A stretch of DNA of 41,297 bases from Nevskia sp. (GTDB lineage Bacteria > Pseudomonadota > Gammaproteobacteria > Nevskiales > Nevskiaceae): assembly GCA_028291705.1 (NCBI GenBank), contig JAQGNS010000135.1, positions 1-41,297 on the forward strand. Reading direction: 5' to 3'. The translations under genes and the position numbers were made by a program. This document shows positions 158-28,190 of this stretch, piece by piece; the first letter of the stretch is position 1, and every line of letters starts with the position of its first letter. The notes beneath the pieces were generated by a model. The model was not told the origin of the DNA and ran no database searches. It saw nothing but the letters and a program-made list of their open reading frames with translations.

Positions 158-200
158 GCATTTTCGTGGGCCTCATACTTTTTGCGCGAATACAGAGTCA

Positions 201-4353: not shown

Positions 4354-4440
4354 CGCCAGCCTCCATTGATCTTTTTCTAGTCCGCCGCCGGAGCAAGCAG
4401 ATCCGGCAGCGTCGAGGATGCCGACGCCCAGTGTAGACCG

Positions 4441-5778
4441 CTATTTGGTAGTGCGCTTCTGCACGGCTTCGGCGGTGAAATACTCGTCGTTGAAATTCCG
4501 GGTGAAGTCGAGCGGCTTGTCCTCGTTGAACATCCCGGTGAGGAAGTAGCGCCCGGAATCGAAGTGGTAGATCACCTCGGGTACGTTGCCATTGGTCAGC
4601 AGGTTGGTGGCGAAAATATTGTGACCTTCCTGGTACTGGTAAAGCTGGTCGCGGGAGTCGTAATCTTCCACACCCAGGATGGTCCAGCCGTCCTCATCGA
4701 TGTACATCAGGCGCCGCTTGAAAGTGTGATTGGTGCCCTGCCTGAGCGTGGCATCCACTACCCAGACCCGGTGCAACTCGTAGCGGGCGAGATCCTGGTT
4801 GAGGTGCCGGGGCCGGGCCATGTCGGCATATTTGGTCGCGCGGCTGGCGACCTTGTACGAATCGTAAGGAACGTACATCTCCTTCTTGCCCATCAGCTTC
4901 CAGTTGTAGCGCTCCAGGGTGCCGTTGAACATGTCGACCTGGTCGTAGAACTGCATGCCGTCAGTGCCCTCGTAAGGATTGTCGCAACATACGGTTGGCG
5001 CTCGGCGGATACGCTTGAGGCCGGGCGAATAGAGCCAGGCGTCCCGGCTATCGACGTATTCGTGCACCAGGATATAGGTACCCGCCACCCTCGGTGGCGA
5101 AACAGTCTGCGAGGCATACTTGATCGCCAGCGCATGGCCATTGGCCGTCACCGGGTTGGTCAGAGAAGCATAGAAGAATTTCACGTCCTCCACGATTTTG
5201 GTCAACTGGGTGCTGCCGCTCGGCTGCACGATCATCTGGTTGTTGTAGCGGGTCACGGATTCGCCGCGCCACTTCAGGCGGTGGTTCCAGATCGCCTCGG
5301 CGCCGGACTTGGGAATCGGGAACGGCAGGCCCAGCCTGGCGTTACTGATCGTGTCCGTTCCCTGCAATTCGGCCGTGGTGGCGTTGGCGACGGTCGCCTT
5401 GAGCACGGCATCCGGGAACGTCTCGATGCGGTGGCTCGGGTAGACATTCATCTTGTAGGTGTCGTAAGTCTGCAGCAGCTTCTTGTGGCCGGCGTCAAGC
5501 TTCTCTGCATACTGCGCCATATTCGCCTTGGTGATGGTGAACAGAGGCTTCTCCGCCTCGATCTGCGGATTGGAAGCGAATTCTGTGGGGGTGCCTTTCT
5601 GCTGGGCGGGCGTCCATGCGGGGATGGTGCCTTCCTTGTTGCCGGCCTTTTCGGCGCCAACCGGCGTCAGATCCTGACCAAGGTGGGCGGCCTCCGTCGC
5701 GGTCACCTTGGCCATCGCGGATGGAACAACCGCACCGAGCAACAAGGCGCCGAGCAGCAGCGTCAGAGCGTGCTTCAT
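4441..5778 (-). CDS. DUF1329 outer-membrane lipoprotein-sorting-like protein
   Basis: The 445-residue product begins with a clear Sec signal (MKHALTLLLGALLLGAVVPS, cleavage after AMA) and then has the DUF1329 body, rich in Tyr, Asp and Arg, with features such as DSRDAWLYSPGLKRIRR and VEDYDSRDQLYQYQEG. The family resembles LolB/LppX-type half-barrels that hold lipid. It lies 17 nt after the DUF1302 gene and upstream of the RND pump, in one probable operon. A periplasmic lipid-binding shuttle between pump and outer membrane is the likely role, inferred from context. Confidence 0.9.
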   Translation of the reverse strand: MKHALTLLLGALLLGAVVPSAMAKVTATEAAHLGQDLTPVGAEKAGNKEGTIPAWTPAQQKGTPTEFASNPQIEAEKPLFTITKANMAQYAEKLDAGHKKLLQTYDTYKMNVYPSHRIETFPDAVLKATVANATTAELQGTDTISNARLGLPFPIPKSGAEAIWNHRLKWRGESVTRYNNQMIVQPSGSTQLTKIVEDVKFFYASLTNPVTANGHALAIKYASQTVSPPRVAGTYILVHEYVDSRDAWLYSPGLKRIRRAPTVCCDNPYEGTDGMQFYDQVDMFNGTLERYNWKLMGKKEMYVPYDSYKVASRATKYADMARPRHLNQDLARYELHRVWVVDATLRQGTNHTFKRRLMYIDEDGWTILGVEDYDSRDQLYQYQEGHNIFATNLLTNGNVPEVIYHFDSGRYFLTGMFNEDKPLDFTRNFNDEYFTAEAVQKRTTK

Positions 5779-5795
5779 GGAAAACCCTCTTCGTA

Positions 5796-8378
5796 TCAGA
5801 ATTGGAGCTTGAGGAATGCCTGGGCGAAGTCACGATCGGACAAGGTGTTGTAAGCGCCACCACCCCAGAACCAGGAGTAGCCGAGCCCGAGCGAGAGATC
5901 CTGGTGATAGCGGAATTCGAACAGGGAATTGACCTGCTTGCGTCCGGCGACGAAGTTGCCGGCCGGGCCCGGCGAGGTCCCCGCCACGTCATGCGAGAAC
6001 ACCACCAGTGGCTTGAGGGTGACGCCGGGCAGGACCTGCTCGTAGTCGAGCTGGGCGATGATGCGGTAACCCCAGGAGAGCTTGTCGGGGTAGCCGGTGT
6101 GGTCTTGCTGATGCGGATTGAAGCGCAGGCCATCCGGGCCGTAGGAACAATCCGGGATGTTGGAGCAGCCCATGCGCGAGCCGTCGGCACCGGAGCCGTC
6201 GGCACCGGCGGTCGGGCCATAGTTGGTGCCGGGTGCCTGCAGTACCAGTTGATCGTAGGACGGCAGGAAAGGAATGTAGTCCGCCCCTACTTCGTACAGC
6301 AGGATCACCTGGTCGGCACCGACGAAATTGTCGGTGCTGCCGTAGACGCGTGTGGCGCCGAGATTGAACTCGAAATCCTGCAGGCGCTGGTAGCCCTGGA
6401 TGTAGCAGGGGCTGCTGCGGTTATAGGGATAGTAGGGGTGCTGGAACTTGTCGAAGCCGAACTGTGCATCGTCGGCGCTGCCGGGCTGCGGATAGCAGGG
6501 CGTGTTCTGGCCAACCACGCCGCCGCGATAGGGGATGATGAAGTTGGGGAAGTAGCGCTGTGAGCCGCCGGCGTGGCCGATGACCAGGTCATAGGTGTCG
6601 TGCTGCGTGACCTGTCCACTCTTATTGACGGCATCACTGCTGCCATACAGCGCGGTGCCGCCATCGGGCGCATTGCCGATGCCGTTGAGGCTCAGCGCAC
6701 CGAGCGGGCCGCTGGTTCCGGTGCAATTCACTCCCGGCTGGCCGCAGGCCGTACCGGCGTGGCCAAGTGCGGCGAAGGCCAGATCGTGCGCATCCACCTG
6801 CATCGGCTTGTTCGGGCGGTAGGCGATTTCACCCTGCAACGAATAGCTGCCGACCGTGGTGTTGAAGCTGGCGCCGATGAGATGGATGTCTTCCGGATAC
6901 TCCAGCCTGAACTTGATGGTATCCAGATCCAGCGAGTCGGACTTGGCCTTTGTCGGGTCGCCGATAGCCAGTAACGGGAGATTCGGGCAATCGAGCAGGG
7001 TGGTGACGACGTCGGTGGCGTCGTTGTTGCGCGCATTGCCTTCCTTGCGCAGGCAGCTCGGATAGGCAGAGAAGAAACTGACGTAGGGCAGACGGGAGTG
7101 GTAATTCTCGTAGTACAGGGAGAAGTCGGTACCGTTGTTGATGGTGTCGCTGTAGTAATCGAGCTTGATGCCGTACTGGCCGGAGGTGCGCGGCTCCAGG
7201 TCCGGCAGGCGGAACACCGTCGCACAGGTCGGGGTCAGGCCGGACAGCGGATTGTCGAGCAGCTTGCCGACGCAGGAAGGGTCTTCCGCACCGCCGCCGA
7301 AGGTAGCGCTCAGACTGTTGGCGGCGTTCTTGGTGCCGATATCGGTGTCGGAAAAATACGTGCCCGGTGTCGGCGCCTCATCCGGCTGCCATTCGAGCTG
7401 GTAGAAACCTTCGATGGTGAAGTTCTCAAGCGGGCTCATGCTCAGGTCGATCATGTTGATCGGCGTGAACACCTCTTCGACCTGCGAGCCGATGCGGTAG
7501 AAATTGTTGGCGTTGATCGGGTTTGCCGAGTTGACGCTGTTGATCTGCAGCGTGGTGCTTTCACCCCAGTTCACCAACTGGCGGCCGATCTTGAAGGTCA
7601 GGTCATGGTCTGCCCACAGCGGCAGCTTGCCGAAGAAATAGCTGTCCAGGTACTGCATGCCGGTGCCCGCTTCCCGCAGGACTTCGCTATCGCTGCGCTT
7701 GTTGCGCACCACGCCGCCTGGCCCATAGAAGCGGCCGGTAATGGCGGTGGCGTTGAGCAGGGATACCGGCACCCCCAGTTGCGACAAGCCGCCGACCACC
7801 GTACTGAGCGCGGGTATCGGGAAAGTGCTCCCCACCCGACCGACCTGGGCAGCATTCTGCGGTGTGATGCGGTTGGGATGGTTCTCGGTGAAGTCGTTGT
7901 TGCGCACATCGAAAAAGTAAAGAACGCGGGCAAAGATGCCGAAGTCGCCGTAAGTGAGGGTGAGATCCGGCGTGACTTTCAGAGGCGCCTGGAAGATGTC
8001 GCCCTTGTGCGCGTAATTGAGTTCGCCGTCGTCGATGTTGGTGCTGGCTGCGCCCCGCGCCGCAAACAGGTGCGCGGCCGGATAAGTCTGGGTACGGAAC
8101 AGGCCCTGGCAGGTCTGGTATGGCGGGGCGCAGACATTGGGATTGAGATTGGACTTGCCGATCAGGTTGTCGCTGGGGCTCTGCATGCGGACGCCGACGC
8201 CGCCCGTAAAAGTGGTGTTGAGCACACCCTTGACCTCATCCTTGGCCAATGGCGGCTCGAAGCTGAAGTCGATGGCCCGGGCGGGCGATCCGATCAGCGT
8301 CAGTACGGCCAGAAGTACGAGTTGAAGCGCCGGCTTTTGCAGCGCTCCCATCCGGATCACGCAAAATTTCCTTTGCAT
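5796..8378 (-). CDS. DUF1302 family outer-membrane protein
   Basis: The 860-residue product has a signal peptide ending near GSPARA and then a long beta-rich, Asn/Gly/Tyr-rich body. It ends in the aromatic residue F (FLKLQF), as expected for an outer-membrane barrel. Segments such as IGRQLVNWGEST and QYGIKLDYYSDTINNGTDFSLYYENYHSR are typical of DUF1302. The first ATG is preferred because GGGGGA precedes it; a second ATG 9 codons later is possible. It is the first gene of the DUF1302-DUF1329-RND-YCF48 set. The likely role is an outer-membrane channel or adhesin for hydrophobic compounds. Confidence 0.9.
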   Translation of the reverse strand: MQRKFCVIRMGALQKPALQLVLLAVLTLIGSPARAIDFSFEPPLAKDEVKGVLNTTFTGGVGVRMQSPSDNLIGKSNLNPNVCAPPYQTCQGLFRTQTYPAAHLFAARGAASTNIDDGELNYAHKGDIFQAPLKVTPDLTLTYGDFGIFARVLYFFDVRNNDFTENHPNRITPQNAAQVGRVGSTFPIPALSTVVGGLSQLGVPVSLLNATAITGRFYGPGGVVRNKRSDSEVLREAGTGMQYLDSYFFGKLPLWADHDLTFKIGRQLVNWGESTTLQINSVNSANPINANNFYRIGSQVEEVFTPINMIDLSMSPLENFTIEGFYQLEWQPDEAPTPGTYFSDTDIGTKNAANSLSATFGGGAEDPSCVGKLLDNPLSGLTPTCATVFRLPDLEPRTSGQYGIKLDYYSDTINNGTDFSLYYENYHSRLPYVSFFSAYPSCLRKEGNARNNDATDVVTTLLDCPNLPLLAIGDPTKAKSDSLDLDTIKFRLEYPEDIHLIGASFNTTVGSYSLQGEIAYRPNKPMQVDAHDLAFAALGHAGTACGQPGVNCTGTSGPLGALSLNGIGNAPDGGTALYGSSDAVNKSGQVTQHDTYDLVIGHAGGSQRYFPNFIIPYRGGVVGQNTPCYPQPGSADDAQFGFDKFQHPYYPYNRSSPCYIQGYQRLQDFEFNLGATRVYGSTDNFVGADQVILLYEVGADYIPFLPSYDQLVLQAPGTNYGPTAGADGSGADGSRMGCSNIPDCSYGPDGLRFNPHQQDHTGYPDKLSWGYRIIAQLDYEQVLPGVTLKPLVVFSHDVAGTSPGPAGNFVAGRKQVNSLFEFRYHQDLSLGLGYSWFWGGGAYNTLSDRDFAQAFLKLQF

Positions 8379-8445
8379 CGCTTTCCCCCCACTCTTGGTG
8401 TATCCGCCAATTGCGCCTGTTGCGCACCAGCGTGCTTTTTTTGAA

Positions 8446-8463
8446 ATCGGGCTTGAGCCCGAT
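8446..8463 (-). terminator. weak terminator-like hairpin
   Basis: ATCGGGCT and AGCCCGAT are exact complements around a 2-nt turn. Read on the minus strand the stem is followed only by TTTC, so termination would be weak. It lies between the end of the DUF2505 gene and the start of the DUF1302 gene and may separate the two units. Confidence 0.4.
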
Positions 8464-8539
8464 GTACAGCGACTCTACCGGTCGCAGACAATGCCTTGAA
8501 CGTGCTTTGCGGACCTGGTTTTGCGATTTCCGGCAGGAT

Positions 8540-9031
8540 TCACAGGTAGTCCTTGAGCAAGCCAATGCCTGCCTGGGTCTCGGCCATCAGCTTCCTCTCA
8601 AGATCCGCCATCAGCAGCTTTTCGAGTGCGCCGCCCAATAGCGGCACCTTCGCGCCGATGTCCCAGTCATAGCGCAGCAGACTATGCTCTTCCCGATCGA
8701 TCAGCGCCGTGCGACAGGACAGCTCGACCGGCAATCCCTTGACCTCGAAGTCCACGGCACCAGACCGATTTGGCACGTTCCAGCAATCCTCGTGGGTCAC
8801 GGTGATCTCCGCCGGAGTAAATCTCCTCAGCGCAGCCGGTACCGGCGCGCTGATGGCCATCTTGCGCCGGATCTTGATGCTGAAGTCGCCGCCGTCGAAG
8901 TGATGCGCCAGCACGGTGTAGGGCGCCAATCCCAGGATTTCCAGCTTGCCGGTATGGAACTCGCGCGTGGTCATCATCTTCAACACGACTGCGGCAGAGG
9001 CCGGATAGCGGCATTCGATGCTAAGTTTCAC
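8540..9031 (-). CDS. DUF2505 domain protein
   Basis: The 163-residue product has no signal or membrane segment and matches the DUF2505 pattern. It begins with an SRPBCC-like strand (MKLSIECRYPASAAVVLKMM), has a central DCWNVPNRSGAVDFEVKGLP region, and ends with GGALEKLLMADLERKLMAE. The family is thought to form a START/SRPBCC-like hydrophobic pocket. It starts 4 nt after the acyl-CoA synthetase stop, so it is co-translated with that gene. A cytoplasmic lipid-binding partner of the synthetase is plausible but unproven. Confidence 0.85.
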   Translation of the reverse strand: MKLSIECRYPASAAVVLKMMTTREFHTGKLEILGLAPYTVLAHHFDGGDFSIKIRRKMAISAPVPAALRRFTPAEITVTHEDCWNVPNRSGAVDFEVKGLPVELSCRTALIDREEHSLLRYDWDIGAKVPLLGGALEKLLMADLERKLMAETQAGIGLLKDYL

Positions 9032-9035
9032 GGCG

Positions 9036-10709
9036 CTATTCCCAGATCACTGTCTGGCCGGCCTTGAGCCAGCGATCGGCCATCGGCAGATAGCGCTCCT
9101 CGATGACGCCGCGCTTGATCTTCATGGTCGGCGTGAGGAAGCCGTTTTCCATGTTCCATGGGTCCTTCACCACCACCAGGTAATCCAGGCGCTCGTGGCC
9201 TTCCAGGGTGCCGTTGACCTGCTGCAGCAGCGTCGCGAAATCGGCCTGGATGGCGGTATTGCCATTGAGTTCCTGGCGGGCTTCCGGCGACAGCAGCAAT
9301 AATCCGAACGGCTGCGGCTGACCCTGTCCAGTCACACACACCGCCTCCAGCTTGGGATGGTTGCCCAGCAGTTGCTCGATCGGCACCGGCGCCACGTATT
9401 TGCCCTTGCTGGTCTTGAACAGCTCCTTGACCCGCCCGGTGATGCGCAGCCTCTGCTGGCTGTCGATCTCGCCGCGATCGCCGGTCCTGAAGTAGCCGTC
9501 CGGCGTGAGATCGTCAACGGTCTTCTGCGGCATCTTGTAGTAGCCCAGCATCTGTCCCGGGCTCTTCACCAGCAGTTCGCCGTTGTCGTCGATCCGGCAT
9601 GTGACGCCGGGCGCGGGGCTGCCGACGTAGCCGATACGGACCTGTCCGGGGCGGCTGGCATGGGAGACGCCGAAGTTCTCGGACATGCCGTAGCAATCCA
9701 GCAATTCCAGGCCGAGCTTGCGGTACCAGGCGATGATGTCCGACGGCAGCGGCGCCGAGCCGGTGATCGCCGCCCGCACATGGTTCAGGCCCAGCTCGCG
9801 CAGGAGCTTGTTCTTGAACAGACGGGAAACCACCGGCAGCGCGAACAACAGCCGCTGCAATGAAGGTGACAGTTTCTGGTTGATGGCCTGGTGGAACTTG
9901 GTCCATAGCCGCGGCACCGAGAAGAACACCGTAGGCTGCGCCCGCTTCAGGTCCTGCTGGAAGGTGTCGAGGCCGCCGGAGAAATACACCCGAAAGCCGA
10001 AATATAGCGAAGTGGATTCGACCGCGGCCCGCTCGGCGACGTGGGCCAGCGGCAGGTATGACAGCATGCGGTCTTCGCTGGTCAATTTATACATCTGGCT
10101 CAGCGCCGCGCTGACTGCCATCATGCTGCCGAAACTGTGCATCACACCCTTGGGCTGGCCGGTGCTGCCGGAGGTGTAGACGATGGTGGCCAGTTCGTCG
10201 GTTTGCGGATCATGCAGCTTGCGCAGCGGCAGGTGCTTCGCGATCAAGTCATCCCATTGCGGCACATCCGGTCGCGGCGACATGGGCAGGCCGATCAGCG
10301 GCAGGTCCTGTGGAATGCCCTGCTGCATCTCGATCCAGCCGTCGGTCTTGCCATCCAGCTTGCCCAGGAACAGCAGCCGGGCCTCGCTGTGGGCGAGGAC
10401 ATATTTCGCCGTGGCGGCATTGAGCGTCGGATACAGCGGCACGGTGACGTGGCCCGCCATCCAGATGGCGAGATCGGCCATGATCCAGTGGGCGCTGTTC
10501 TTGCCCAGCAGTGCAATATTGCTTTTTGGCGGCAGCTCCAGCGACTTCAGATGGGCCGCCATGCGCCGCGCCTGATCGCCGACTTCCGCCCAGCTGTAGT
10601 CCAGTACGCGCCCATCGGGATACGGCTGCGTGAGATAGGTGCGCTGTGGATTGATCTTTTCCCAGTGCTGGAAGCAGCCGAGTAGCGTTTTTCTGCCGTG
10701 ATCTACCAT
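9036..10709 (-). CDS. AMP-forming long-chain acyl-CoA synthetase
   Basis: The 557-residue product has all the motifs of the adenylate-forming family: the phosphate loop YTSGSTGQPKG near residues 176-187, the aromatic-acyl pocket region GYVGSPAPGV, the ATP-binding YFRTGDRGEID, and the hinge RITGRVKELFKTSKGKYVAP. The catalytic-Lys region of the C-terminal lid reads PTMKIKRGVIEERY. It activates a free carboxylic acid to its CoA thioester with ATP, feeding beta-oxidation or acyl transfer. It is the first gene of a unit with DUF2505 and is divergent from the AraC-type regulator. The chain length cannot be read from sequence. Confidence 0.92.
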   Translation of the reverse strand: MVDHGRKTLLGCFQHWEKINPQRTYLTQPYPDGRVLDYSWAEVGDQARRMAAHLKSLELPPKSNIALLGKNSAHWIMADLAIWMAGHVTVPLYPTLNAATAKYVLAHSEARLLFLGKLDGKTDGWIEMQQGIPQDLPLIGLPMSPRPDVPQWDDLIAKHLPLRKLHDPQTDELATIVYTSGSTGQPKGVMHSFGSMMAVSAALSQMYKLTSEDRMLSYLPLAHVAERAAVESTSLYFGFRVYFSGGLDTFQQDLKRAQPTVFFSVPRLWTKFHQAINQKLSPSLQRLLFALPVVSRLFKNKLLRELGLNHVRAAITGSAPLPSDIIAWYRKLGLELLDCYGMSENFGVSHASRPGQVRIGYVGSPAPGVTCRIDDNGELLVKSPGQMLGYYKMPQKTVDDLTPDGYFRTGDRGEIDSQQRLRITGRVKELFKTSKGKYVAPVPIEQLLGNHPKLEAVCVTGQGQPQPFGLLLLSPEARQELNGNTAIQADFATLLQQVNGTLEGHERLDYLVVVKDPWNMENGFLTPTMKIKRGVIEERYLPMADRWLKAGQTVIWE

Positions 10710-10804
10710 TGCAACAGCTCTCCTGAGTGCTGCGCGGGATGGCCATATGCAGCGCAGCGGGGTCTTCAGCCCGTGGGAGAACCTTAAGGAAGTTGGGGAA
10801 CGGC

Positions 10805-10839
10805 TTGAACAGTACGTCCGGACGCCGATTTGCTATATT
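10805..10839 (+). promoter_or_regulatory. divergent promoter/operator region, acyl-CoA synthetase and AraC gene
   Basis: The 173-nt gap between the two divergent starts holds an extended -10 element, TGC followed by TATATT (10831-10839), pointing toward the regulator gene. Just upstream is the perfect 10-bp palindrome CGTCCGGACG (10815-10824), placed where a bound regulator would touch the -35 region. TTGAAC at 10805 is too far away (23 nt) to be its normal -35. Autoregulation by the AraC-type protein is a reasonable inference. Confidence 0.5.
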
Positions 10840-10882
10840 CGGACATGAGGGGTGAGATACCAAAATATAACGTTCGTTCAAC

Positions 10883-11923
10883 ATGGACTGGCGATTTCCG
10901 AGGAGCAGTTACAGCGTCGGCCTGATGTGTTCGGCCGCGGCCGAACACGGGCTGTCGCAGGAGCAATGCCTGGCCGGCAGCCGCATCGAAGCCGCGGCGC
11001 TCCACGATCCCGCGGCGGAAATCTATCCCGAGCAGGAACTGGCGGTGATCGGCAACATCGTGCGCCAGCTTGGCCATGTGCCGGGCATCGGCCTGGAGAT
11101 GGGCTCGCGCATTCACATGTCGGTTTACGGCATCCTGGCGTTCGCGCTGTCCAGCTGCGCGACCATACGGGAACTGATGGAGCTGGGAATTCGCTATAGC
11201 CGTCTCGCATTCTCGTTGACGGACAAACGCTTCGAGCAGCATGGCGACGAATTCCATGTCTATTTCGACGATCAGCACATTCCCGAGCCGCTGCGCCGCT
11301 TTGTGCTGGAGCGCGATCTTGCCGGCATATTCAACATACAAGTCGAATTGTTCTCCAGACACGTTCCCTTTCGCAGGATGTTGTTGCAGCTGGAACAGCC
11401 GGCGTATGCGGATCGTTTTGAAAAAATTTTCGGGCTGCGGCCGGAATTCGGGGCGCAGCGGAGCGTGCTGATCGCCGATGCCGCCGTGCTCGATCTGCCT
11501 TTGCCGCAAGCCAACCGCCACGCCCTGCGCTATTGGGAAACGCAGTTGCAGGATCTGCTGACGAAGAAAGCGGCACGCGTGGGCATGGCCGGCAAGGTAC
11601 GCAGCATTCTGCTGCGCAGTCCAGGGGAGGCACCGGACATGGAGAGGATCGCCGCGGAGCTGTGCACCACCTCACGCCACCTGCGCCGGCTTTTGACCAC
11701 GGAAGGAACCTCGTTCCGCGGCCTGGTCGATGAAATACGCGAAACCATGGCCGAAGAACTGCTGTGCTCGGCACGGCTGACTGTGGAGCAGGTCGCCGAC
11801 CGGCTCGGCTACAACGAAGTCTCCAGCTTCACCACCGCCTTCCGACGCTGGAAAGGCATGCCGCCGCGCGACTGGCGCAGCGCCAATCTGCGCCAGACGG
11901 CACCGCCGGCGCGGCTATCCTGA
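10883..11923 (+). CDS. AraC-family regulator with Arabinose_bd-type N-domain
   Basis: The 346-residue product has an N-terminal sensor domain of the OruR/ArgR-like AraC branch (about residues 15-200) and a C-terminal double helix-turn-helix. The first helix pair is MERIAAELCTTSRHLRRLL, and the second is LTVEQVADRLGYNEVSSFTT followed by AFRRWKGMPPRDWR. This branch often senses small lipophilic or amino-acid-derived effectors. It is the only plus-strand gene among the lipid genes and is divergent from the acyl-CoA synthetase, its most likely target. The gene on its other side converges with it, 32 nt away. Confidence 0.92.
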   Translation: MDWRFPRSSYSVGLMCSAAAEHGLSQEQCLAGSRIEAAALHDPAAEIYPEQELAVIGNIVRQLGHVPGIGLEMGSRIHMSVYGILAFALSSCATIRELMELGIRYSRLAFSLTDKRFEQHGDEFHVYFDDQHIPEPLRRFVLERDLAGIFNIQVELFSRHVPFRRMLLQLEQPAYADRFEKIFGLRPEFGAQRSVLIADAAVLDLPLPQANRHALRYWETQLQDLLTKKAARVGMAGKVRSILLRSPGEAPDMERIAAELCTTSRHLRRLLTTEGTSFRGLVDEIRETMAEELLCSARLTVEQVADRLGYNEVSSFTTAFRRWKGMPPRDWRSANLRQTAPPARLS

Positions 11924-11955
11924 TTTCATCTCCGTCGCGGTAACCTCCACGGCGT

Positions 11956-13662
11956 TTACGGACCACAGCCAGCGCGGATGTCCTCGCAATGCTGCCGATG
12001 GCCCGAGCGATCCGGATAGTCGCGCGCCGAACGGGAGCGGAAACTCATCTTGACCGCGCCCTCGCTGCCGGCGTCATCGACCAGGCGCGTATCGGCATCG
12101 GCATAGCCGGCTTCGCCAGGCTTCTTCAGCCAGCGGTCGAGCCAGGCCAGGGTGTAGTACTGCGCCATCGGCTCGCCCCAGCCACCGGTACAGGCGCCGC
12201 TTTTGGTGTCCGGGCACCACGAAGTGGTCGGAAAAGCCGGAATCTGGCTCCATTCCGCATGCGAGCTGCCCTGGATGGTGAACTCGAACACCGGGACGCC
12301 GGCGGCCTGCCAGGCACTGAAGCCCTGGCTCTTGCGCTGCTCCGGATCGGGCGGCGTGAGGTAGGGCGAGACGAACAGGCCGTATTCCGACGACTGCCCC
12401 ATCGCCGGCACGCGCGCGCCGAAGTTCGGCAGACCGCGCTCGATGACCAGGCGGAACAGGGGATCGGCAATGCCCAGCTGGTACAGGATGTTGCCGATAC
12501 CGCCCCCCTGCTCGGCGCCGCCGATCAGGCCGCCGCCAGGCTTGAGCAGGCCATCCCAGGCCACGGCGACCTTGACCGGATTGGACTTGTCGATCTTGCC
12601 CGGCCAGGGATCGGCGCCGGGCGCGCCGTAACCCTGCACCACGGCGACGCCGATGGAGCCGAGCGAGTGGCCGGCGATACCCAGGCGATCCGGATCGATC
12701 GCGGCGTAAGCCGGGTTATACGGCGCCACCTTGGTCGGATAGGCGTAGCTGCAGCTGATGTTGTTCGGATACGGCGTGCCGGGCGTGGAACGGAAAAAGT
12801 CGATGGCATCGACCAGGCCGGTCCAGAACACGCTGGGATTGATGTTGGTGCCCTGGCCGCCGCTGGGCGTCTGCTCGTCGGAGCGCCCCTGGCCGCGCGG
12901 GTCGAAGGTCAATACGACATAGCCGCTGCGCACCAGGGCCTGTGCCGCCCACCAGTACAGCGGCTCCGGCGCTTCGACCGAACCATTGTCGATGACCACG
13001 CCGGGCAGCGTGGCGCCCGCGGCAATGCTCTTCGGCTGCCACACCCGCCCGGACAGGCGGGCACAGCCGGAGTCGTAGAACACCACCGGCGTCACCACCG
13101 CTTCGTTGTTGTAGAAGTCGTCGCCGTCCGGTCCTTTCACTCCCGGATAGCGGAACGGGTCGCCGGCGGCGGAGAGGACATAGCTGCCGAGCAGCGGCGT
13201 CACCGGCGTGTCCAGCGACAGGGATAGCGCGTGTTCCGGATCTTCCAGCACTTCGGCCAGCACCTGCTGCAAGGTTGTGCTGAGCATGGCGGGGTTCTTC
13301 AGTGCCGCCAGCAACTGGTCCAGCGGGGTGGAAGACACCAGCAGCCAGCTCGGGTCGGCCACGTCGCGTGCAACCAAGGTGCCGATATTGGTCAGGCTTT
13401 GCCCGGTCAGGCGCGCCAGGAAAGCAGGGTTGGCGACCTCTTCCAGCGGGGCCTGCAATACCTTGGCGAAATTCTGCGCCTCGCACTGCGTCCATTTCGC
13501 CGAGGGATAGAGCGCCACATCGCAGCTGCGATCGAGATTTTGCGGCTGCGTCGGCACCACCGCCTGTGCGCCAGCCGTGCCGTCAACCGGGTCGGAACCG
13601 CCGCAAGCGGCCAGCAGGGCGCCGCAGGCCAGCAGGACCATCGTCAAAACTTTCGCGCGCAT
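11956..13662 (-). CDS. lipoprotein alpha/beta hydrolase
   Basis: The 568-residue product begins with a lipoprotein signal. The lipobox LAAC puts the lipidated Cys at residue 20, followed by GGSD. About residues 180-520 form an alpha/beta-hydrolase fold. FDPRGQGRSDEQ follows strand 5, the nucleophile elbow GHSLGS has its Ser near residue 332, and SSHAEW near the C-terminus offers the His. The roughly 150-residue N-terminal part after the signal is helical and not recognised. An AGGGG site precedes the ATG. A surface or periplasmic esterase/lipase that frees fatty acids for the neighbouring synthetase is likely; the substrate is unknown. Confidence 0.85.
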   Translation of the reverse strand: MRAKVLTMVLLACGALLAACGGSDPVDGTAGAQAVVPTQPQNLDRSCDVALYPSAKWTQCEAQNFAKVLQAPLEEVANPAFLARLTGQSLTNIGTLVARDVADPSWLLVSSTPLDQLLAALKNPAMLSTTLQQVLAEVLEDPEHALSLSLDTPVTPLLGSYVLSAAGDPFRYPGVKGPDGDDFYNNEAVVTPVVFYDSGCARLSGRVWQPKSIAAGATLPGVVIDNGSVEAPEPLYWWAAQALVRSGYVVLTFDPRGQGRSDEQTPSGGQGTNINPSVFWTGLVDAIDFFRSTPGTPYPNNISCSYAYPTKVAPYNPAYAAIDPDRLGIAGHSLGSIGVAVVQGYGAPGADPWPGKIDKSNPVKVAVAWDGLLKPGGGLIGGAEQGGGIGNILYQLGIADPLFRLVIERGLPNFGARVPAMGQSSEYGLFVSPYLTPPDPEQRKSQGFSAWQAAGVPVFEFTIQGSSHAEWSQIPAFPTTSWCPDTKSGACTGGWGEPMAQYYTLAWLDRWLKKPGEAGYADADTRLVDDAGSEGAVKMSFRSRSARDYPDRSGHRQHCEDIRAGCGP

Positions 13663-13826
13663 AAAGCCCCTGCCCTTTTTGTAATGCCTGGAGTTTCACA
13701 CTCCCTGCCGCGAGGACTCCATGCTTGCACCGGACCTGGATTTTTGAATTGCGGACAAGAAACCGCCGGCGGCACATGAGTCGGACAAACCTGATCAATG
13801 CGTCAGGCTTCGCAGGCTGATGCGAC

Positions 13827-15062
13827 TCATCTCGCGACTTTCTTCTTTCCCGTCCTGGCCCCTGGCTTTGCTTTTTTGCGCGGGGGCGTGCCGGCTTGCG
13901 GCACGGATACCGCCGAGCGCTCACCGAGCCAGTCCGCTGCCGGGCTCCACACTTCACCCAGCGCCTTGCTGCCCAGGATCACGCCCATGTGGCCGCCGGC
14001 CGCGATGGTGAAACGCTTGTCGGCGGAGGCGACCAGGTCCACGCTGTTTCTGGCGATGGGCGGCGGCACCAGCACGTCGCTGGCGCCGGCGATGACCAGC
14101 ATGGCGGCGTGGATGCGGTCGAAGCGCGACACCTGCCCGCCGATCTCGAGCTGCCCCCTGGACAGGCTGTTGTCCATGCCGACCTTGATCACCATGTCCT
14201 GCAGCACACCGGCCGGGTACATCAGCATGTTGTTGAGGTAGTTCGAGGTGGTGGTGTGCGAGGTAACGAACTCGCGGTCCCACAGGCGTGTCAGCAGATC
14301 CCAGTAGGTGGTGACGCTGCCGACCGGATCGGTCAGCTTGAAGGCCAGGGTGGTGAACCAGGCGGGCATCTGCATCCTGGCGGGGTCGAGCGCATGCAGG
14401 CGGAACTCGGTGTACTTGCGGATCAGCTGCGCCGGGGTGTTGATTGCCGAGGCCAGGCCGGCGACGATGCCGCCGCCGCGCATGTCGATGGGGCTGGCCA
14501 CGGTGACGATATTGACGATGCGCGGATCTTCCCGGAGGCCGGCGTGGATCAGGCACAGCAGGCCGCCCATGCACCAGCCCATCAGCGACAGCGGCTCGGT
14601 GCCGGCGTGCTTGCGGATGCGGGCCAGCGCCAGCGACATCATGTCGTCGGCATACTCCTTCATGCCAAGATGGGCGTGCCGCTTTTCCGGCTTGCCCCAG
14701 TCGATCAGGTAGGTGCGGAAGCCGCGCGCCGCCATGTAGCGCGCCAGGCTGCGCTGCGGCATCAGGTCGAAGGTGTTGGCGGTCACGCCCAGCGGCGGCA
14801 CCAGCACCAGGGGCACCGGGTGCTGCCTGCGCTCGACCGCCATGCGGCTGCCGTTGGCCAGTTCGATCGTGTCTTCTTCCGGCAGGCCGTAGTAGCGCAC
14901 CGACATCGGGTCGCCGTCGTAAACCAGCTCGAACCAGGTCTTGCCGGACTTGACCAGACGGTCCGAACGGAACAACCAGTCGAAGCCGTTGAGCACGGTG
15001 CCGGCCAGGCGTTGATTCAGCGCCAGGCCGCGGCTGCGTGCTTGCCGGATCAGTTCACTCAT
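13827..15062 (-). CDS. PHA-synthase-like alpha/beta hydrolase with Cys nucleophile
   Basis: The 411-residue product looks like a class III PhaC-type protein. Residues 60-130 hold VPPLGVTANTFDL and RTYLIDWGKPEKRHAHLGM. The nucleophile elbow is GWCMGG with Cys164, a Cys where ordinary lipases have Ser and the hallmark of PHA synthases. ASDVLVPP gives the Asp and AAGGHMG the His. The C-terminus is Lys/Arg-rich. Its ATG at 15062 lies inside the end of the WS/DGAT gene (8-nt overlap), so the two are translationally coupled. No PhaE, PhaR or phasin gene is nearby, so polymer synthesis is not certain; it may acylate or hydrolyse CoA esters. Confidence 0.85.
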   Translation of the reverse strand: MSELIRQARSRGLALNQRLAGTVLNGFDWLFRSDRLVKSGKTWFELVYDGDPMSVRYYGLPEEDTIELANGSRMAVERRQHPVPLVLVPPLGVTANTFDLMPQRSLARYMAARGFRTYLIDWGKPEKRHAHLGMKEYADDMMSLALARIRKHAGTEPLSLMGWCMGGLLCLIHAGLREDPRIVNIVTVASPIDMRGGGIVAGLASAINTPAQLIRKYTEFRLHALDPARMQMPAWFTTLAFKLTDPVGSVTTYWDLLTRLWDREFVTSHTTTSNYLNNMLMYPAGVLQDMVIKVGMDNSLSRGQLEIGGQVSRFDRIHAAMLVIAGASDVLVPPPIARNSVDLVASADKRFTIAAGGHMGVILGSKALGEVWSPAADWLGERSAVSVPQAGTPPRKKAKPGARTGKKKVAR

Positions 15063-16449
15063 GTGCCGCTCCCGCGATGACATCTTCCAGGTCCTGCAGC
15101 GCCTGCTCCATGTACACCGCCATGCGCTGCAGATGCGGCAACGCATCGCGCGCGCCAGCCAGTCCGAAGTTGACTGTGTCGGCGTAGCGGTAACAGGCGA
15201 TGCTCAGCGCGCCATCCTGGGTCAGGGGGAACATCGGATAGATAGCCTCCAGCCGCGAACCGTCGAGGTAAAGCGGCTGGCGGGGCCCGGCCAGATCGGA
15301 GATCACCAGGTTGAACATGCGCGGCACCAGGGCGTGGATGCCGCTCAGGCGTCCGAGCAGCAGCGGTGCCGCGATGGTCAGCGCATAGGCTGGAAGCAGC
15401 GTCGGTGGCAGCGCATCCAGATGCGCCCGTGTCGCACGCACCGAGCAGCGGATCGCCGCCAGACGCTTCAGCGGATCGGCCAGATGGGTGCCCAGACTGT
15501 AAAGGCTGATGGCGCCGTAGACGTTGTCGCCGACTGCTGCGTCGCCATCCGCATGCAGCCCAGGCATTGCCGCCACCAGGGACCGCTGCGGCAGTGCGTT
15601 GTACTCCTTGAAGAAGCGGCGCAGCACGCTGGCGCATAGGTACAGCACGATTTCGTCGACGCTGGCCTGCGCAGCAGTGGCCGCGCGCTGCAAGCGCGCC
15701 AGTTCGAATTGTTGCGTGGCGAAGCGGCGCTGGGGCCCGATGCGCACGTTCAAGGCGGAGCGCGGGGCCGTGTACGGCGCGGGCAGGTCATCACCAGGTT
15801 TTCTCGCCGCCTGCAGCAGGCGCTGCATGGCCTGGCGCATGGCGCGCTGTGAACCTGCGGCAGCGCCGCCAAACAGGCCGCGCAATGACTCTCCGAGCTG
15901 GCCGCCGGCGACGGTGCGCTGTGATTGCTCCGAGGGCAGCGCCCATAGCGGGGGCAGGCCTCGCTGGCGTGGGTTCTTCGACAATGCGCCGGTGAGCCCG
16001 CGCAAGACGTCGCCCACATCCATCAGCGCGTGGTGGACCTTGAAATACAGGGCATAGCGTCCGCCGTGCAGGCCCTCGATCAGATGGCATTCCCAGGGGG
16101 GCCGGCTCAGGTCGAGCGCATGGCTGTGCAACCGCGACACCAGCATGCCGAGTTCGCGCTCGCCGCCGGGTGCCGGCAGGGCCGACCGGCGCAGGTGATA
16201 CTCCAGGTCGAAGTCCGCAGCGATTTCCCAGCCTGGGCTTAGGCGCCGACGCATGCCGCGCACCAATTTCAGATTCCATGGCGCCAGTACGTCGGTCTCC
16301 GCGCGCAGTCGCTCGGCCAACTGCGCCACAAAGTGCGGCCTGGCGTCGTCCGGCGCACTGAAGATCAGCAGACTACCGATGTGCATCGGCGTGTCAGCCG
16401 AGTCCATCAGCAGCCAGCTTCGATCCAGGGCGCTGAGCGAGTGGTTCAT
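15055..16449 (-). CDS. WS/DGAT: wax ester synthase / diacylglycerol acyltransferase
   Basis: The 464-residue product starts with the family signature [20 protein letters not shown]. The acyl-transfer motif HHALMD is at residues 139-144. The C-terminal region has [10 protein letters not shown] and LYPMF-like strands, as in bacterial WS/DGATs. These enzymes join an acyl-CoA to a fatty alcohol or diacylglycerol at the inner membrane. The usual HHxxxDG reads HHALMDV here: the catalytic His140 and Asp144 are kept but Gly is replaced by Val145. It is the gene between a GMC oxidoreductase (47 nt upstream) and the PhaC-like enzyme (overlapping). Confidence 0.88.
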
Positions 16450-16496
16450 GCGGCTGTTCTCACGGTGGCGGAGATCTCGCGGCCGATCTTCGAGGT

Positions 16497-18152
16497 TCAG
16501 GCATTCTGCGCCTCTTCTAGAATCATTGCGGCGCCCTTCTCGCCGATCATGGTGGCGGGCGCGTTGGTATTGCCGCCGACCACGGTCGGCATGATCGCGC
16601 AATCCACCACCCGCAGGCCGCCGATGCCGTGCACCCGCAGGCGCGCATCGACCACTGCCATCGCGTCCACGCCCATCTTGCAGGTGCCAACCGGGTGGTA
16701 AGCAGTTTCGGCGGTGCTGCGTACCCAGGCGGCCAGGTCGGCGTCGGACTGAATCTGCGGACCAGGCGCCAGCTCCTCGCGGTTGTAGACTGCAAGTGCG
16801 GGCTGGGCGGCGATGGTGCGCGCCAGCTTCACGCCGCGCACCAGGCGGTCCACATCGCGTTGATGTGCGGCGTAGTTGGGGTCGATCAGGGGCGGCGCGA
16901 ATGGATCAGCACTGCGCAGGCCGACCCGCCCGCGCGACAGCGGCCGGTTGTCGTAGACCATGATGGAGTAGGCATACCATTTCAACGCCGGCCACAGATT
17001 GAGCGCATGCCGGGTGGCGGGCACCGGGATGAGGTGCAGCTGCAGGTCGGGAATCGGCTCGTCCGGCTGGGAACGTATGAATGCACCCGCCTCGCCGGGG
17101 TTGTGGGTCAGCTCGCCACGCTTGAAGAAGACGTAGTCGAACATCTGTATCACCCAGCGCCACCATGCGGTGGGATGGAACGACATGGGGTCATGCGTAC
17201 GGGTGCGCATGACCAGGAAAATATCGAGATGATCCTGCAGGCTCTGGCCGACACCGGGCAGTTCGTGTGCCAGCGGAATGCCGTGCTGCTGCAATTCTTC
17301 CCTCGGCCCGATGCCCGAGAGCAGCAGCAGTTGCGGTGAATTGAAAGCGCCGCCGCAGAGAATCACTTCGCGCCTGGCCCGCGCCTGATGCAGGGCGCCG
17401 CCGCGGCGGTATTCGACGCCGACTGCGCGCTTGTCCTGCAGCAGCACCCGGGTGGCATGGGCGCCGCTGAGGACGGTGAGATTGGGGCGGTTGCGGACCG
17501 GCCATAGATAGGCACGCGCATTGCTGCAGCGCTGGCCGTCCTGCTGGAAGGCGCGATACAAACCCACGCCCTCCTGATGCGCGCCGTTGAAATCATCGTT
17601 CAGCGCAAGACCCGCCTGCTGGCCGGCTTCGACAAAGGCCAGTCCCATGCGATTGGTGGAACTGCGGTCCTTCACGTTGAGCGGGCCGTGCTGGCCGTGA
17701 TATTCGGCCAGGGACCGGGCCTCTTCCCCGGCCGCCGCCGCCAGCGGCTCGTAGTGCTCGGACTGCTTGAAATACGGCAGCACCTCGCGATACGACCATC
17801 CTGCGCAGCCGAGTTCCGCCCAATGGTCATAGTCCCAGGCGTGGCCCCGGATGTAGACGCAGCCGTTGATTGAGCTCGATCCGCCCAGGGTCTTGCCGCG
17901 TGGCTGGAACATGACGCGGTTGCCCAGGTGCCGCTGCGGCGTGGTCCAGAAGCGCCAGTTGAAGCGGCGGCTGTGCATCAGCTGGATCGGCCCCATCGGC
18001 ATATGGATAAAGGGATTCCAGCGATCGCTTGGCCCCGCTTCCAGCAGCAGCACGCGGAACCGGCCATCGGCCGACAGACGATTGGCGACGACACAACCGG
18101 AAGAGCCGGCGCCCACCACAATGTAGTCGTACTCGTCCTGGCTGTCGGCCAC
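16497..18152 (-). CDS. GMC-family FAD-dependent alcohol oxidoreductase
   Basis: The 551-residue product has the FAD motif [14 protein letters not shown] near residues 13-26, both GMC signatures ([18 protein letters not shown] and [17 protein letters not shown]), and the C-terminal active-site pair: the His in [10 protein letters not shown] and the Asn in GGNTNAP. It oxidises a primary or secondary alcohol to an aldehyde or ketone. The start is taken as GTG at 18152 because GAGG sits 8 nt upstream; a GTG at 18158 is the alternative. It begins 10 nt after the racemase stop. Next to a wax ester synthase and beta-oxidation genes, a fatty or sterol-side-chain alcohol is the likely substrate. Confidence 0.9.
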
Positions 18153-18162
18153 GGGCACAGCC

Positions 18163-19284
18163 TCAGGCGGTTTCCGCAAGCGCTTCGGGCAAGGTGCCAA
18201 TGATCTCGGCGGTATGCTCGCCCAGCCTGGGGCTGTGACCGCTGCGGACGAAGGCATTGCTGAACTGGATCGGCAGATTGAATGCCGGCTTGCCGCCCTC
18301 TTCGACGATCATGCCGCGGGCCTTGAAATGTGCGTCCTGCAAGGCCTCCAGCGGCGTCAGCACCGCCGAGACACAGGTATCTTCCCCAGCCAGCAGCTGC
18401 TCCCATTCTTCGCGGCTGCGGGTCTTGAACAGGCTACCCAGTTCCTGGCGCAGCTCTGCTCCCGCGGCGCCGAAGCCCTGCGGTTTCTTCAGCAGGTCCG
18501 GACGCTGCAACAATTGGCACAGGCGGCTGAAGAACTTCGGCTCCAGCGCGCCCACCGCCAAATACTTGCCATCCGCACAGGGATAGGCGCCATAGTTCGG
18601 CAAGGCGCCGGAGAGCATGTCGCTGCCCCGCTCGTGGGCACAATCCATCGAGCGGATCGCACCCAGCGCCAGCACCTGCAGCGCCAGCGTGCCGTCGGTC
18701 ATGCTGACGTCAACAAAGCTGCCGATGCCCGAGGCGCGGGCTCCGATCAGGGCGCCGAGGATGCCGATGGCGCAGGTGAGGGCGCCGCCGGCCAGATCGG
18801 CGACCTGGAAGTTGCCGGCAGCCGGAGGGCCGCTGGCACTGCCGGTCTGGTCCAGCTCTCCGGCGTACCCACGATAGTTGATATCGTGGCCCGGGCGATG
18901 ACTGTAGGGGCCGGTCTGTCCGTACCCGGTAAGCGCGGCATACACCAGACGCGAGTTGATCCGGCGCAGCTCCTCGTAGCCGCAGCCGAGCTTTTCCATC
19001 ACGCCGGGACGGAACGACTCCAGCACCACATCGGCGCTTGCCACGAGGTGCTTGAACGACCGCACATCATCGGCCTTGCGCAGATCCAGCGTCACCGACT
19101 TCTTGGCGCGATTGATCTGGTTGAACAGCTCCGGCGAGAGGCGCGCATAGTCGCCGCCATTGGGCTCTTCGATCTTGATCACTTCCGCACCCATCTGCGC
19201 CAGATAAAGCGTGCAGAACGGACCGGGGAGCAGGCGCGACAGGTCCAGCACGCGGACGCCAGACAGCAGGGGGTTGCAGTTCAT
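18163..19284 (-). CDS. alpha-methylacyl-CoA racemase (CaiB/BaiF family)
   Basis: The 373-residue family III CoA-transferase fold protein begins GVRVLDLSRLLPGPFCTLYLAQ. The racemase residues are in place: GHDINY gives His133, and Asp163 in QVADLAGG lies exactly 30 residues later, the spacing of His126/Asp156 in the mycobacterial racemase. This argues for a racemase over a formyl-CoA-type transferase. It interconverts (2R)- and (2S)-methyl-branched acyl-CoAs, which is needed before dehydrogenation of sterol side chains or isoprenoid acids. Neighbouring acyl-CoA dehydrogenase, MFE-2 and SCP-x-type thiolase genes support this. A 170-nt gap separates it from the upstream hydrolase gene, so it may have its own promoter. 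Confidence 0.88.
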   Translation of the reverse strand: MNCNPLLSGVRVLDLSRLLPGPFCTLYLAQMGAEVIKIEEPNGGDYARLSPELFNQINRAKKSVTLDLRKADDVRSFKHLVASADVVLESFRPGVMEKLGCGYEELRRINSRLVYAALTGYGQTGPYSHRPGHDINYRGYAGELDQTGSASGPPAAGNFQVADLAGGALTCAIGILGALIGARASGIGSFVDVSMTDGTLALQVLALGAIRSMDCAHERGSDMLSGALPNYGAYPCADGKYLAVGALEPKFFSRLCQLLQRPDLLKKPQGFGAAGAELRQELGSLFKTRSREEWEQLLAGEDTCVSAVLTPLEALQDAHFKARGMIVEEGGKPAFNLPIQFSNAFVRSGHSPRLGEHTAEIIGTLPEALAETA

Positions 19285-26940: not shown

Positions 26941-26980
26941 ATACAGTCCGGCCTGTATTTACATACAGGTTGATCGGTAT
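26941..26980. promoter_or_regulatory. two tandem TetR-type operators in a divergent promoter region
   Basis: ATACAGTCCGGCCTGTAT (26941-26958) is an 18-bp palindrome with 6-bp perfect arms. ATACAGGTTGATCGGTAT (26963-26980) is a weaker copy (arms 5 of 6). Their centres are 22 bp apart, about two helical turns, so two dimers could sit on the same face. They lie 35-74 nt before the acyl-CoA dehydrogenase ATG and 93 nt before the tetR ATG. A third copy is at 28034-28051. The motif is read from sequence; its binding by the adjacent TetR protein is inferred. Confidence 0.7.
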
Positions 26981-27072: not shown

Positions 27073-27780
27073 ATGAGCAAGGCCGCAATCGCGCCGATGG
27101 GTCCTGCAAGCCAGGCGCCGCGCCGTTTGACGCAGGCGGAGCGCAGCGAAGCGATGCGCAAGCGCCTGCTCGAGGCGACCCTGGAAAGCCTGGCCGAGGA
27201 TGGGTACGCCGGTACCAGCCTGAATTCGATCGTGCGCAGGGCCGGTGTTTCGCGGGGCGCCCAAACCCACCACTACCCCAGCAAGCAGGCGCTGATCCTG
27301 GATGCGGCGGAAGACCTGTTACGACGCAGCTACCGCACGCTGGGCCAACTCATCCTGTCCAGTGCCGACGAGGGCAATCGCCTACAAACTCTGATCGAGG
27401 CCACATGGGCACAGCTGTTCGACACACCGCTGTACCACGCCTATGCCGAATTGCTGACAGCAAGCCAGCGCGACGTGCAGCTCGCCGATGCCTTGCGCGA
27501 ATTGCTGCTCCGGGTGCGCCGCATGTTCGAACCGGCAATCGAACATTATTTCGAGCCCGCGCCTGGAGCGCGCGAAGATCTGAGAGTGCTGTTTCTCCAG
27601 CTCAGCTTCCTCATGGTCGGACTCTCCTCGCAGGTGCACTTGTTCAATGACAGGGGTCTTGTACAGGCCCAGATCAAGCTTTGGATCAAACAGGCGGCTC
27701 CGCTGATACGCGCCAAGAAGGGCATCAAAACACCACCGCCGCGGCCAGACTCCTTTGATCGGCCGCTTGCGGCTGACTAA
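27073..27780 (+). CDS. TetR-family regulator, probable repressor of the beta-oxidation genes
   Basis: The 235-residue product has an N-terminal TetR helix-turn-helix. The region RLLEATLESLAEDGYAGTSL is followed by NSIVRRAGVSRGAQTHHYPSK, with the usual Tyr and Lys that contact DNA backbone. The ligand domain follows, about residues 75-210. GAGG precedes the ATG. It is transcribed away from the acyl-CoA dehydrogenase/MFE-2/thiolase run, and the intergenic region carries tandem palindromes that suit this family. An acyl-CoA or sterol-CoA ligand is likely by analogy with FadR, KstR and PsrA-type TetRs, but cannot be read from sequence. Confidence 0.92.
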   Translation: MSKAAIAPMGPASQAPRRLTQAERSEAMRKRLLEATLESLAEDGYAGTSLNSIVRRAGVSRGAQTHHYPSKQALILDAAEDLLRRSYRTLGQLILSSADEGNRLQTLIEATWAQLFDTPLYHAYAELLTASQRDVQLADALRELLLRVRRMFEPAIEHYFEPAPGAREDLRVLFLQLSFLMVGLSSQVHLFNDRGLVQAQIKLWIKQAAPLIRAKKGIKTPPPRPDSFDRPLAAD

Positions 27781-28026
27781 AACAACCACACGCACCCACT
27801 TGATAAAACATCTCGTGTCCGCAGACCAAAATTTCCGTGGCGCCGTTGTCGCGACCGGAGCCCGGTAGAAGATCTGCTGTAGTTTCAATCTGTGAACCGG
27901 CGTCAGACAGCGCCAATTCACTGAACGCAAAACACGAGCTTCAGCTTCTAGCCCCTTAGCTCGCGCGGAGTTGCCACTCCCTCCTACGATCTGTACATTT
28001 CATTATGCTGTAGGTCGATTTACACA
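27781..28026. other. non-coding stretch downstream of the TetR gene
   Basis: I see no credible gene here. The stretch becomes AT-rich toward its right end, leading into the promoter at 28027. No terminator with a T-run follows the tetR stop. Confidence 0.5.
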
Positions 28027-28057
28027 TTGTCTTACACAGTCCGGATTGTGTTATAGT
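28027..28057 (+). promoter_or_regulatory. promoter with embedded TetR-type operator
   Basis: TTGTCT (28027-28032) and TATAGT (28052-28057) form a -35/-10 pair with a 19-nt spacer. The spacer is filled by ACACAGTCCGGATTGTGT (28034-28051), a near-perfect palindrome (8 of 9 pairs) that matches the operator at 26941-26958 in 14 of 18 positions, including the central AGTCCGG. A bound TetR dimer would block this promoter. It points at the tRNA-like sequence and terminator just downstream. Confidence 0.6.
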
Positions 28058-28083
28058 TTAGTTGTTATTTATCAAGCGCTTAT

Positions 28084-28156
28084 GGTAGATGCAGCGGACT
28101 CAAAATCCGCCGAGGCGACCCCTGGTGAGAGTTCGAGTCTCTCCTTATAGGCACCA
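28084..28156 (+). pseudogene. tRNA-Leu(CAA)-like fragment lacking the 5' acceptor strand
   Basis: From the GGTAG of the D-loop to the encoded CCA this copies positions 56-126 with three substitutions and a 2-nt insertion (TA) in the 3' acceptor strand. The anticodon arm with CAA and the T-arm are unchanged, and the D-arm spacing is kept. Upstream bases do not pair with the 3' acceptor strand, so it cannot form a normal tRNA. It is either the displaced 3' end of a tRNA gene left by integration of an element, or part of a small RNA, because it has its own promoter and terminator. Confidence 0.85.
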
Positions 28157-28165
28157 GAACGAAAG

Positions 28166-28190
28166 AAGCCGGCTCAATGCCGGCTTTTTT
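28166..28190 (+). terminator. Rho-independent terminator after the tRNA-like fragment
   Basis: AAGCCGGC/GCCGGCTT closes a TCAAT loop and ends in TTTTTT. With a start near 28064 the transcript would be about 125 nt. The sequence is unrelated to the terminator at 135-157, so the resemblance between the two loci stops at the CCA end. Confidence 0.9.

Follow-up and report, generated by a model that had tools for sequence, protein, structure and literature searches.

The locus and its cargo

The window analysed in the current study is a 41,297 nt stretch of Nevskia sp. DNA that makes up an entire contig (C105) of a 614-contig, 5.88-Mb genome (G000). Near its start lies a complete tRNA-Leu(CAA) gene (nt 39–126, plus strand; called by ARAGORN and matched by Rfam RF00005 at 56.2 bits), at the left border of a probable integrated element or immediately outside it. 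The cargo of this segment consists of lipid-type genes, recognised from ORFs and Pfam matches. They occupy the minus strand (nt 1771–26942) and encode MMPL, DUF1329 and DUF1302 proteins, an AMP-binding ligase, a CoA transferase III, a GMC oxidoreductase, a nitroreductase, a thiolase, an MFE-2/SCP2 protein, an acyl-CoA dehydrogenase and others, with an AraC gene on the plus strand among them (nt 10883–11923). A TetR-family regulator follows on the plus strand (nt 27073–27780; PF00440, E 8e-13), and has a 68% homologue on contig C173 of the same genome. Beyond it, at nt 28027–28190, come promoter-like letters, a palindrome, a tRNA-like piece and a terminator-like hairpin. The first-pass annotation, which did not mention the complete tRNA gene, had read this feature as a TetR-controlled small RNA.

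A probable displaced tRNA-Leu(CAA) fragment

As had been claimed, a tRNA-Leu(CAA)-like sequence runs from the D loop to the CCA (nt 28084–28156). The fragment as aligned (nt 28084–28157, core at nt 28096–28108) is on the same strand as the complete gene and is 93% identical to nt 56–127 of the window (69 of 74 columns, E about 1e-25). It differs by three substitutions, one of which disrupts a variable-arm pair (by eye), and by 2 extra nt within the 3' acceptor strand; the anticodon and T arms are both unchanged, again in agreement with the earlier description. A functional tRNA was rejected, as ARAGORN called no tRNA at nt 28084–28157 and no Rfam family reached its gathering score there. The weak Rfam matches at the fragment (best AgrB and tRNA-Sec) all fell below gathering and were rejected. 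The strong terminator that had been reported is also present, as a GC hairpin plus T6 (nt 28162–28190, plus strand). The hairpin appears in the predicted fold, the terminator scan lists a minus-strand reading only, and this is probably the terminator of the original tRNA gene.

The intact gene and its cognate fragment show most of the features by which Islander recognises islands: they share one replicon and one orientation, the 3' fragment is downstream and reaches the tRNA end (CCA at nt 28156), and the 28 kb between them falls within the allowed 2–200 kb. Of an integrase gene inside or overlapping the segment there is only a 44-nt relic of the gene start (see below), and the locus is therefore filed as the attachment junctions of a degenerate element and not as a complete island.

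Two other tRNA-Leu(CAA) 3' fragments, on G003 C55 and at G008 C105:1479, have different DNA in the 90 nt upstream, and neither the arm motif described below nor the palindrome was found within that distance. The first-pass annotation had named relatives in which the fragment decays and the operator is missing as adverse to its reading, and these two touch on that point. A further contig of the same genome (C225) carries a reversed exact copy of nt 1–80 of the window and ends there, in the anticodon arm; as regards the junction this is suggestive only.

To judge from its neighbourhoods, the tRNA-Leu(CAA) site is an integration hotspot. In 7 of 27 loci the tRNA is immediately followed, on its downstream side, by an integrase of a different type (six long matches, including the query's own, and one of 74 aa). 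In a comparison of 28 loci, from which L024 and L034 were excluded beforehand and L015, ending at the tRNA, was dropped, upstream DNA was common to 148 of 325 locus pairs and downstream DNA to 33 of 300; one of these 33 pairs includes a locus that offered just 476 nt. The first gene to the right of the fragment was not beside tRNA-Leu in relatives, so that these offered no empty site for comparison with the window. At the G008 locus (L035, nt 1484–18591), 17 kb of catabolic-looking genes (by eye) lie between two tRNA-Leu pieces, and may form another island at this tRNA.

The probable right-hand junction

Just inside the fragment are two arm-type sites in direct repeat, TTACACATT and TTACACAGT (nt 28020–28041, plus strand), and an IHF-like site, TATCAAGCGCTTA (nt 28070–28082, plus strand), so called by comparison with WATCAANNNNTTR, which we take to be the IHF consensus. 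An arm pattern built from the window and G008 has 0-mismatch copies in 3 of 18 genomes of the genus (the window, G008:C105 and G006:C19). In all three the 22-nt arm starts 74 nt before the tRNA-Leu anticodon-arm core GGACT(C/T)AAAATCC. The IHF-like site stands at the same offset at the three right ends with 0, 1 and 1 mismatches, and none of 20000 dinucleotide shuffle sets was as good, the motif having been picked after looking at these ends. The core at G006:C19 belongs to a tRNA-Leu(UAA)-type 3' half, and the armed copy in G008 retains only about 26 nt of exact tRNA. About 720 nt inward of the arm were compared, and the three right ends showed no similarity there. Behind the G006:C19 arm (L082/L083) are genes for a patatin, a DncV-like synthase and an E1/E2 protein (CBASS-like), a MobA-type relaxase and a NikA/MobC-like protein.

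The 22-mer arm, searched with up to 2 mismatches, occurs as a single copy in each of 4 of 85 genomes, and its reversed control not at all. The fourth copy, in G001, has 1 mismatch; it lacks a core 74 nt away, though there is an intact tRNA-Leu(UAA) at a distance of slightly less than 5 kb. A looser pattern (3 mismatches) gave 8 matches in 6 of the 18 genomes, while its reversed control gave 4; only the four matches at 0–1 mismatch were used. A scan of an 84,980-species collection recovered two exact stretches of the arm, both from Nevskia sp., and viral contigs yielded no exact stretch. Searches with nt 27990–28090 gave no match in plasmids and a single 24-nt match (E 3) in phages, and the TTACACAT/G motif was absent from 30 integrase loci (of 57 places from a PF00589 scan). 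At the level of sequence the right end thus has the lambda-type attachment order, of core, IHF-type site and direct-repeat arm sites at fixed spacing.

The promoter-like letters overlap this arrangement. TTGTCT (nt 28027–28032) and TATAGT (nt 28052–28057) are present as reported, and TGTTATAGT is a possible extended -10 (by eye). The proposed -35, however, sits within the arm motif that is conserved at two other element ends (G008 and G006), and TATAGT is absent from both. The palindrome said to fill the spacer is there (nt 28034–28051, 8 of 9 pairs complementary), but the distance between TTGTCT and TATAGT is 19 nt. The pair is missing from the output of the sigma-70 promoter scan because that scan covers spacers of 16–18 nt. 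Unlisted by the scan and not preserved as a whole at the right ends of G008 and G006, the proposed promoter does not mark a conserved transcript unit. The palindromy of nt 28034–28051 is by itself unremarkable; the window has 15 palindromes of this quality, that one counted.

The probable left-hand junction and integrase relic

Behind the complete tRNA gene, nt 195–235 (plus strand) resemble a decayed 5' part of tRNA-Leu, with the core GGACTAAAAGTCC (nt 212–224), now a palindrome. This stretch is identical to the tRNA, from the D arm, at 33 of 41 positions (0 of 2000 mononucleotide shuffles as good), and aligns with the severed tRNA-Leu(UAA) 5' halves of G006 and G065 described below. The motif TTACACA occurs in the window, on both strands, only at nt 277, 28020 and 28032. 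The first of these (nt 277–283, plus strand) is the candidate left arm-type site; it is 65 nt from the core at nt 212, and the same interval is 66 nt in G006. Next comes a probable relic of the start of an integrase gene (nt 313–356, plus strand). Its 44 nt are 75% identical to the beginning of the integrase gene in G006, a level that none of 1000 shuffles reached. From TTACACA to the start codon or its equivalent is 40 nt in both the window and G006. No IHF-like site within 1 mismatch was found at the left end of the window.

When the window was searched at the protein level with the G006 integrase, the matches listed all had E values of 0.2 or worse, and the relic therefore rests on DNA similarity and spacing. 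PF00589 found no intact integrase gene on the window contig, a null result weakened by the G006-type family scoring below that cut-off. For the same reason an earlier search for relics, using ORFs of at least 180 aa from the integrase loci of the PF00589 scan, found none in the window. The G006 integrase protein has no match in the window's genome at E 1e-10.

G008 has the same left end behind its own tRNA-Leu(CAA), with 85% identity over 40 nt and 89% over 87 nt; the query nt 195–420 had missed it and nt 395–505 found it. No integrase relic was seen in the aligned G008 left end (by eye). The 87-nt match covers an array of short hairpins inside the left end (nt 406–492, plus strand), which among 85 genomes is matched in G006 and G008 (87–88%) and by one 21-nt stretch in G062. 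In G006 its orientation is inverted relative to the core and junction.

Two readings of the left border may be considered. In the classical one, the element would have rebuilt the tRNA at nt 39–126; in the G006-like one, the junction would be nt 195–235 and the tRNA at nt 39–126 a neighbouring intact copy. The latter is favoured because of the equal spacing (65/66 and 40/40 nt). In both, nt 28084–28157 would be the displaced 3' half.

Severed tRNA-Leu(UAA) genes beside an integrase in G006 and G065

On the minus strand of G006:C77 a tRNA-Leu(UAA) 5' half ending in the core is followed by an IHF-like site (perfect, in inverted orientation), by TTACACAG and TTACACAT, and by a recombinase gene. 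The recombinase, of 420 aa, is an integrase according to PHROGs (5e-24) and matches Phage_integrase in Pfam below the cut-off only, which is probably why the PF00589 scan did not list it. When the 5' half on C77 and the 3' half on C19 were joined, ARAGORN called a tRNA-Leu(taa), and from this fit we infer that the two contigs are linked. Directly after the recombinase gene is a complete tRNA-Leu(UAA) whose anticodon loop is interrupted by an intron of 218 nt (ARAGORN). This intron, the only one scored against Rfam Intron_gpI, reached 32.9 bits (E 9e-7), below the gathering score of 50. With introns allowed, ARAGORN also called a tRNA-Ala(ggc) with a 262-nt intron elsewhere on the same locus (L152, nt 18916–19269), possibly a false call.

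A genome of another genus, G065, has the same order: a severed tRNA-Leu 5' half, a homologous integrase, and then a tRNA-Leu(UAA) with a 225-nt intron. The two integrases share two long stretches of 55 and 73% identity and a short one of 47%. In both genomes, then, the integrase stands between a severed 5' half and an intron-bearing tRNA-Leu(UAA) (L152, nt 5665–7420, on G006:C77, and L154/L157/L159 on G065:C134). Homologues of the G006 integrase occur in 4 of 85 genomes (G006 itself, G065 and, more weakly, G001 and G017), and the three weaker homologue loci have no tRNA-Leu core or TTACACA nearby. None was found in phage records or viral contigs. There were homologues in 24 plasmid records; of the four with long matches that were inspected, none has an intron-bearing tRNA and three have a tRNA 3' end upstream (by eye).

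These complete relatives seem to break a tRNA gene and to carry their own intron-interrupted spare copy. The intron-bearing tRNA-Leu(UAA) would perhaps be a replacement that the integrase cannot cut, its intron hiding the core from the recombinase. The window itself has an intact tRNA and no intron-bearing one, and does not show such tRNA-dependent integration. It is conceivable, if on balance doubtful, that the scar is a decayed member of a group of elements that break tRNA-Leu at the anticodon arm and carry a spare tRNA-Leu, in which a self-splicing intron in the anticodon loop of the spare removes the recombinase target, and that both recombinase and spare have been lost here.

The predicted TetR operator and the operator-like palindrome

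Inspection of 22 of the 30 loci returned for the TetR homologue showed a palindrome of the ATACAGTCYGGACTGTAT type upstream in 18, the window's own locus counted (seven exact, 11 with one mismatch); the other four were below the palindrome filter. In the window this predicted operator lies between tetR and the acyl-CoA dehydrogenase gene (nt 26941–26958). At this divergence, nt 26941–26969 hold two overlapping palindromes, where the other loci with a match show one.

The reported likeness of nt 28034–28051 to the operator before the beta-oxidation genes holds, with 14 of 18 positions identical to nt 26941–26958. The palindrome overlapping the arm is closer to the homologue consensus (15 of 18) than is the window's own operator (14 of 18). 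Within 3 mismatches of that consensus there are five places in the 5.88-Mb genome, against one match per strand for the reversed-pattern control; they are the operators of the two TetR copies, nt 28034–28051, and two that match on one strand only. The palindrome at nt 28034–28051 has 3 mismatches on both strands. Its left half, however, is set by the arm, and the G006 and G008 arms have this half without the right one. The conserved consensus lends the claim of an operator here some support. For the right half, a chance fit is expected in about 8 of 10,000 cases, given an assumed composition and a single look.

Interpretation of the feature at nt 28027–28190

With high confidence, the feature can be read as the right-hand attachment junction of a degenerate 28-kb integrated element. 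The tRNA-like piece is most probably half of a tRNA gene, left behind at the border of imported DNA, and not a new regulatory RNA. Confidence in this was raised by the integrase relic and by the junctions of G006 and G065. The intact tRNA with its 93% direct 3' repeat favours it, as does the G006 left end, where the same spacing of core, arm and gene start goes with a whole integrase gene. The tyrosine recombinase of the element would have crossed over in the anticodon arm of tRNA-Leu genes, leaving the displaced 3' half with its terminator at the right. The DNA just inside would be a lambda-like arm, in which a core, an IHF-type bend site and two direct-repeat arm sites are the presumed protein targets. 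At the left, the decayed 5' part (nt 195–235) would be followed by an arm site and the integrase-start relic, the rest of the integrase gene having presumably been deleted. The '-35' would then be part of the arm, and the '-10' and 'small RNA' would need no function. The operator-like palindrome is left unexplained by this.

The first-pass annotation proposed instead that the tRNA fragment is transcribed, under TetR control, into an RNA of some 125 nt that could act as a decoy or regulator. The palindrome's consensus match (15 of 18, one of five genomic places), the -10-like TATAGT and the terminator speak for it, and the fold of nt 28064–28190 has a z of -2.8 (1 of 200 shuffles as good), much of which comes from the terminator hairpin (by eye). 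The tRNA-Other of B. cereus (PMC3399842, from the text available) is a precedent. The fragments and arms of relatives nevertheless lack the palindrome, the 19-nt spacer goes unlisted by the promoter scan, the changes in the fragment are not kept by structure, no Rfam match reaches gathering, and the full combination was seen in one genome only. Integration accounts for the tRNA piece and the promoter is not conserved at the other right ends, and we regard this RNA as unsupported and very unlikely. A degenerate tRNA-Leu copy made by local duplication, with no integration at all, would fit the 93% identity to the intact gene and the second tRNA-like piece at nt 195–235. It would leave unexplained the integrase-start relic, the reappearance of the arm, its spacing and the IHF-like site beside tRNA-Leu pieces in other genomes, and the severed tRNA-Leu halves beside the same integrase family in G006 and G065, and it can be given hardly any weight.

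Compatible with an attachment junction is the proposal that TetR binds nt 28034–28051 for some purpose other than a small RNA, as a weak auxiliary operator or in competition with the recombinase at the arm. Binding over the arm is plausible: the consensus match is one of five such places, the site is about 250 nt past the end of tetR, its 3 mismatches hold on both strands where the two other 3-mismatch places match on one only, and the chance figure for the right half is low. Against this, the arm dictates the left half, the right half can also be read as an ACACA-type arm site in inverted orientation (by eye), and the combination is seen in one genome, so the proposal is best regarded as tentative, with the balance somewhat against it. 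That TetR would cover the arm and thereby tie excision, or an RNA, to lipid supply is highly improbable. A TetR-like site over the arm bears on whether a cargo regulator can touch mobility, and the locus illustrates that half of a tRNA gene, once displaced, can look like a regulated gene for a small RNA.

Comparison with known systems

Islander (PMC4383910), in the text available, describes tRNA-targeted islands with an anticodon-centred core (2083 such sites) and 3760 islands with 3' fragments. The window shares with these a tRNA gene, a cognate 3' fragment downstream in the same orientation, and an anticodon-centred core. It differs in having an integrase relic only and two tRNA-like pieces besides the intact gene, and in its 2-nt insertion in the acceptor strand, where some of the islands described there have a small deletion near that point. 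The order of core, IHF site and arm-type sites is that of the P' arm of phage lambda as given in the accessible part of PMC4880445, while arm sequence and target are different. At attL of the KplE1 prophage, at argW, promoter elements likewise overlap arm sites beside a tRNA piece, but according to the portion available of PMC2951348 that promoter drives the integrase gene, whereas the one proposed in the window points into the tRNA piece.

For the small RNA, the first-pass annotation knew of no described system like it, and open-licence literature gave no TetR-controlled RNA from a displaced tRNA fragment. A caveat comes from B. cereus, where the available text of PMC3399842 describes a pseudo-tRNA (tRNA-Other) beside a genomic island and under Fur control. 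It shares with the window the position at an island edge and the regulator sites upstream; transcription and a deletion phenotype were demonstrated there, while the window is known from its sequence.

The attachment motif leads to elements in two genera in which a recombinase adjoins both a severed tRNA-Leu(UAA) and one with an intron, and the open-licence literature gave no intron-bearing replacement tRNA beside an integrase. The G006/G065 arrangement resembles the tRNA-dependent lysogeny of mycobacteriophages, as far as described in the available part of PMC10865867, with an intron added: the tRNA of these elements has a group-I-like intron in the anticodon loop. The G006 element also carries mobilisation and CBASS-like genes, and only decayed ends are left in the window. 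It has been proposed that introns in tRNA genes give protection from integration (Randau and Soll, cited in the accessible text of PMC4390854), and the elements of G006 and G065 make this idea testable in bacteria.
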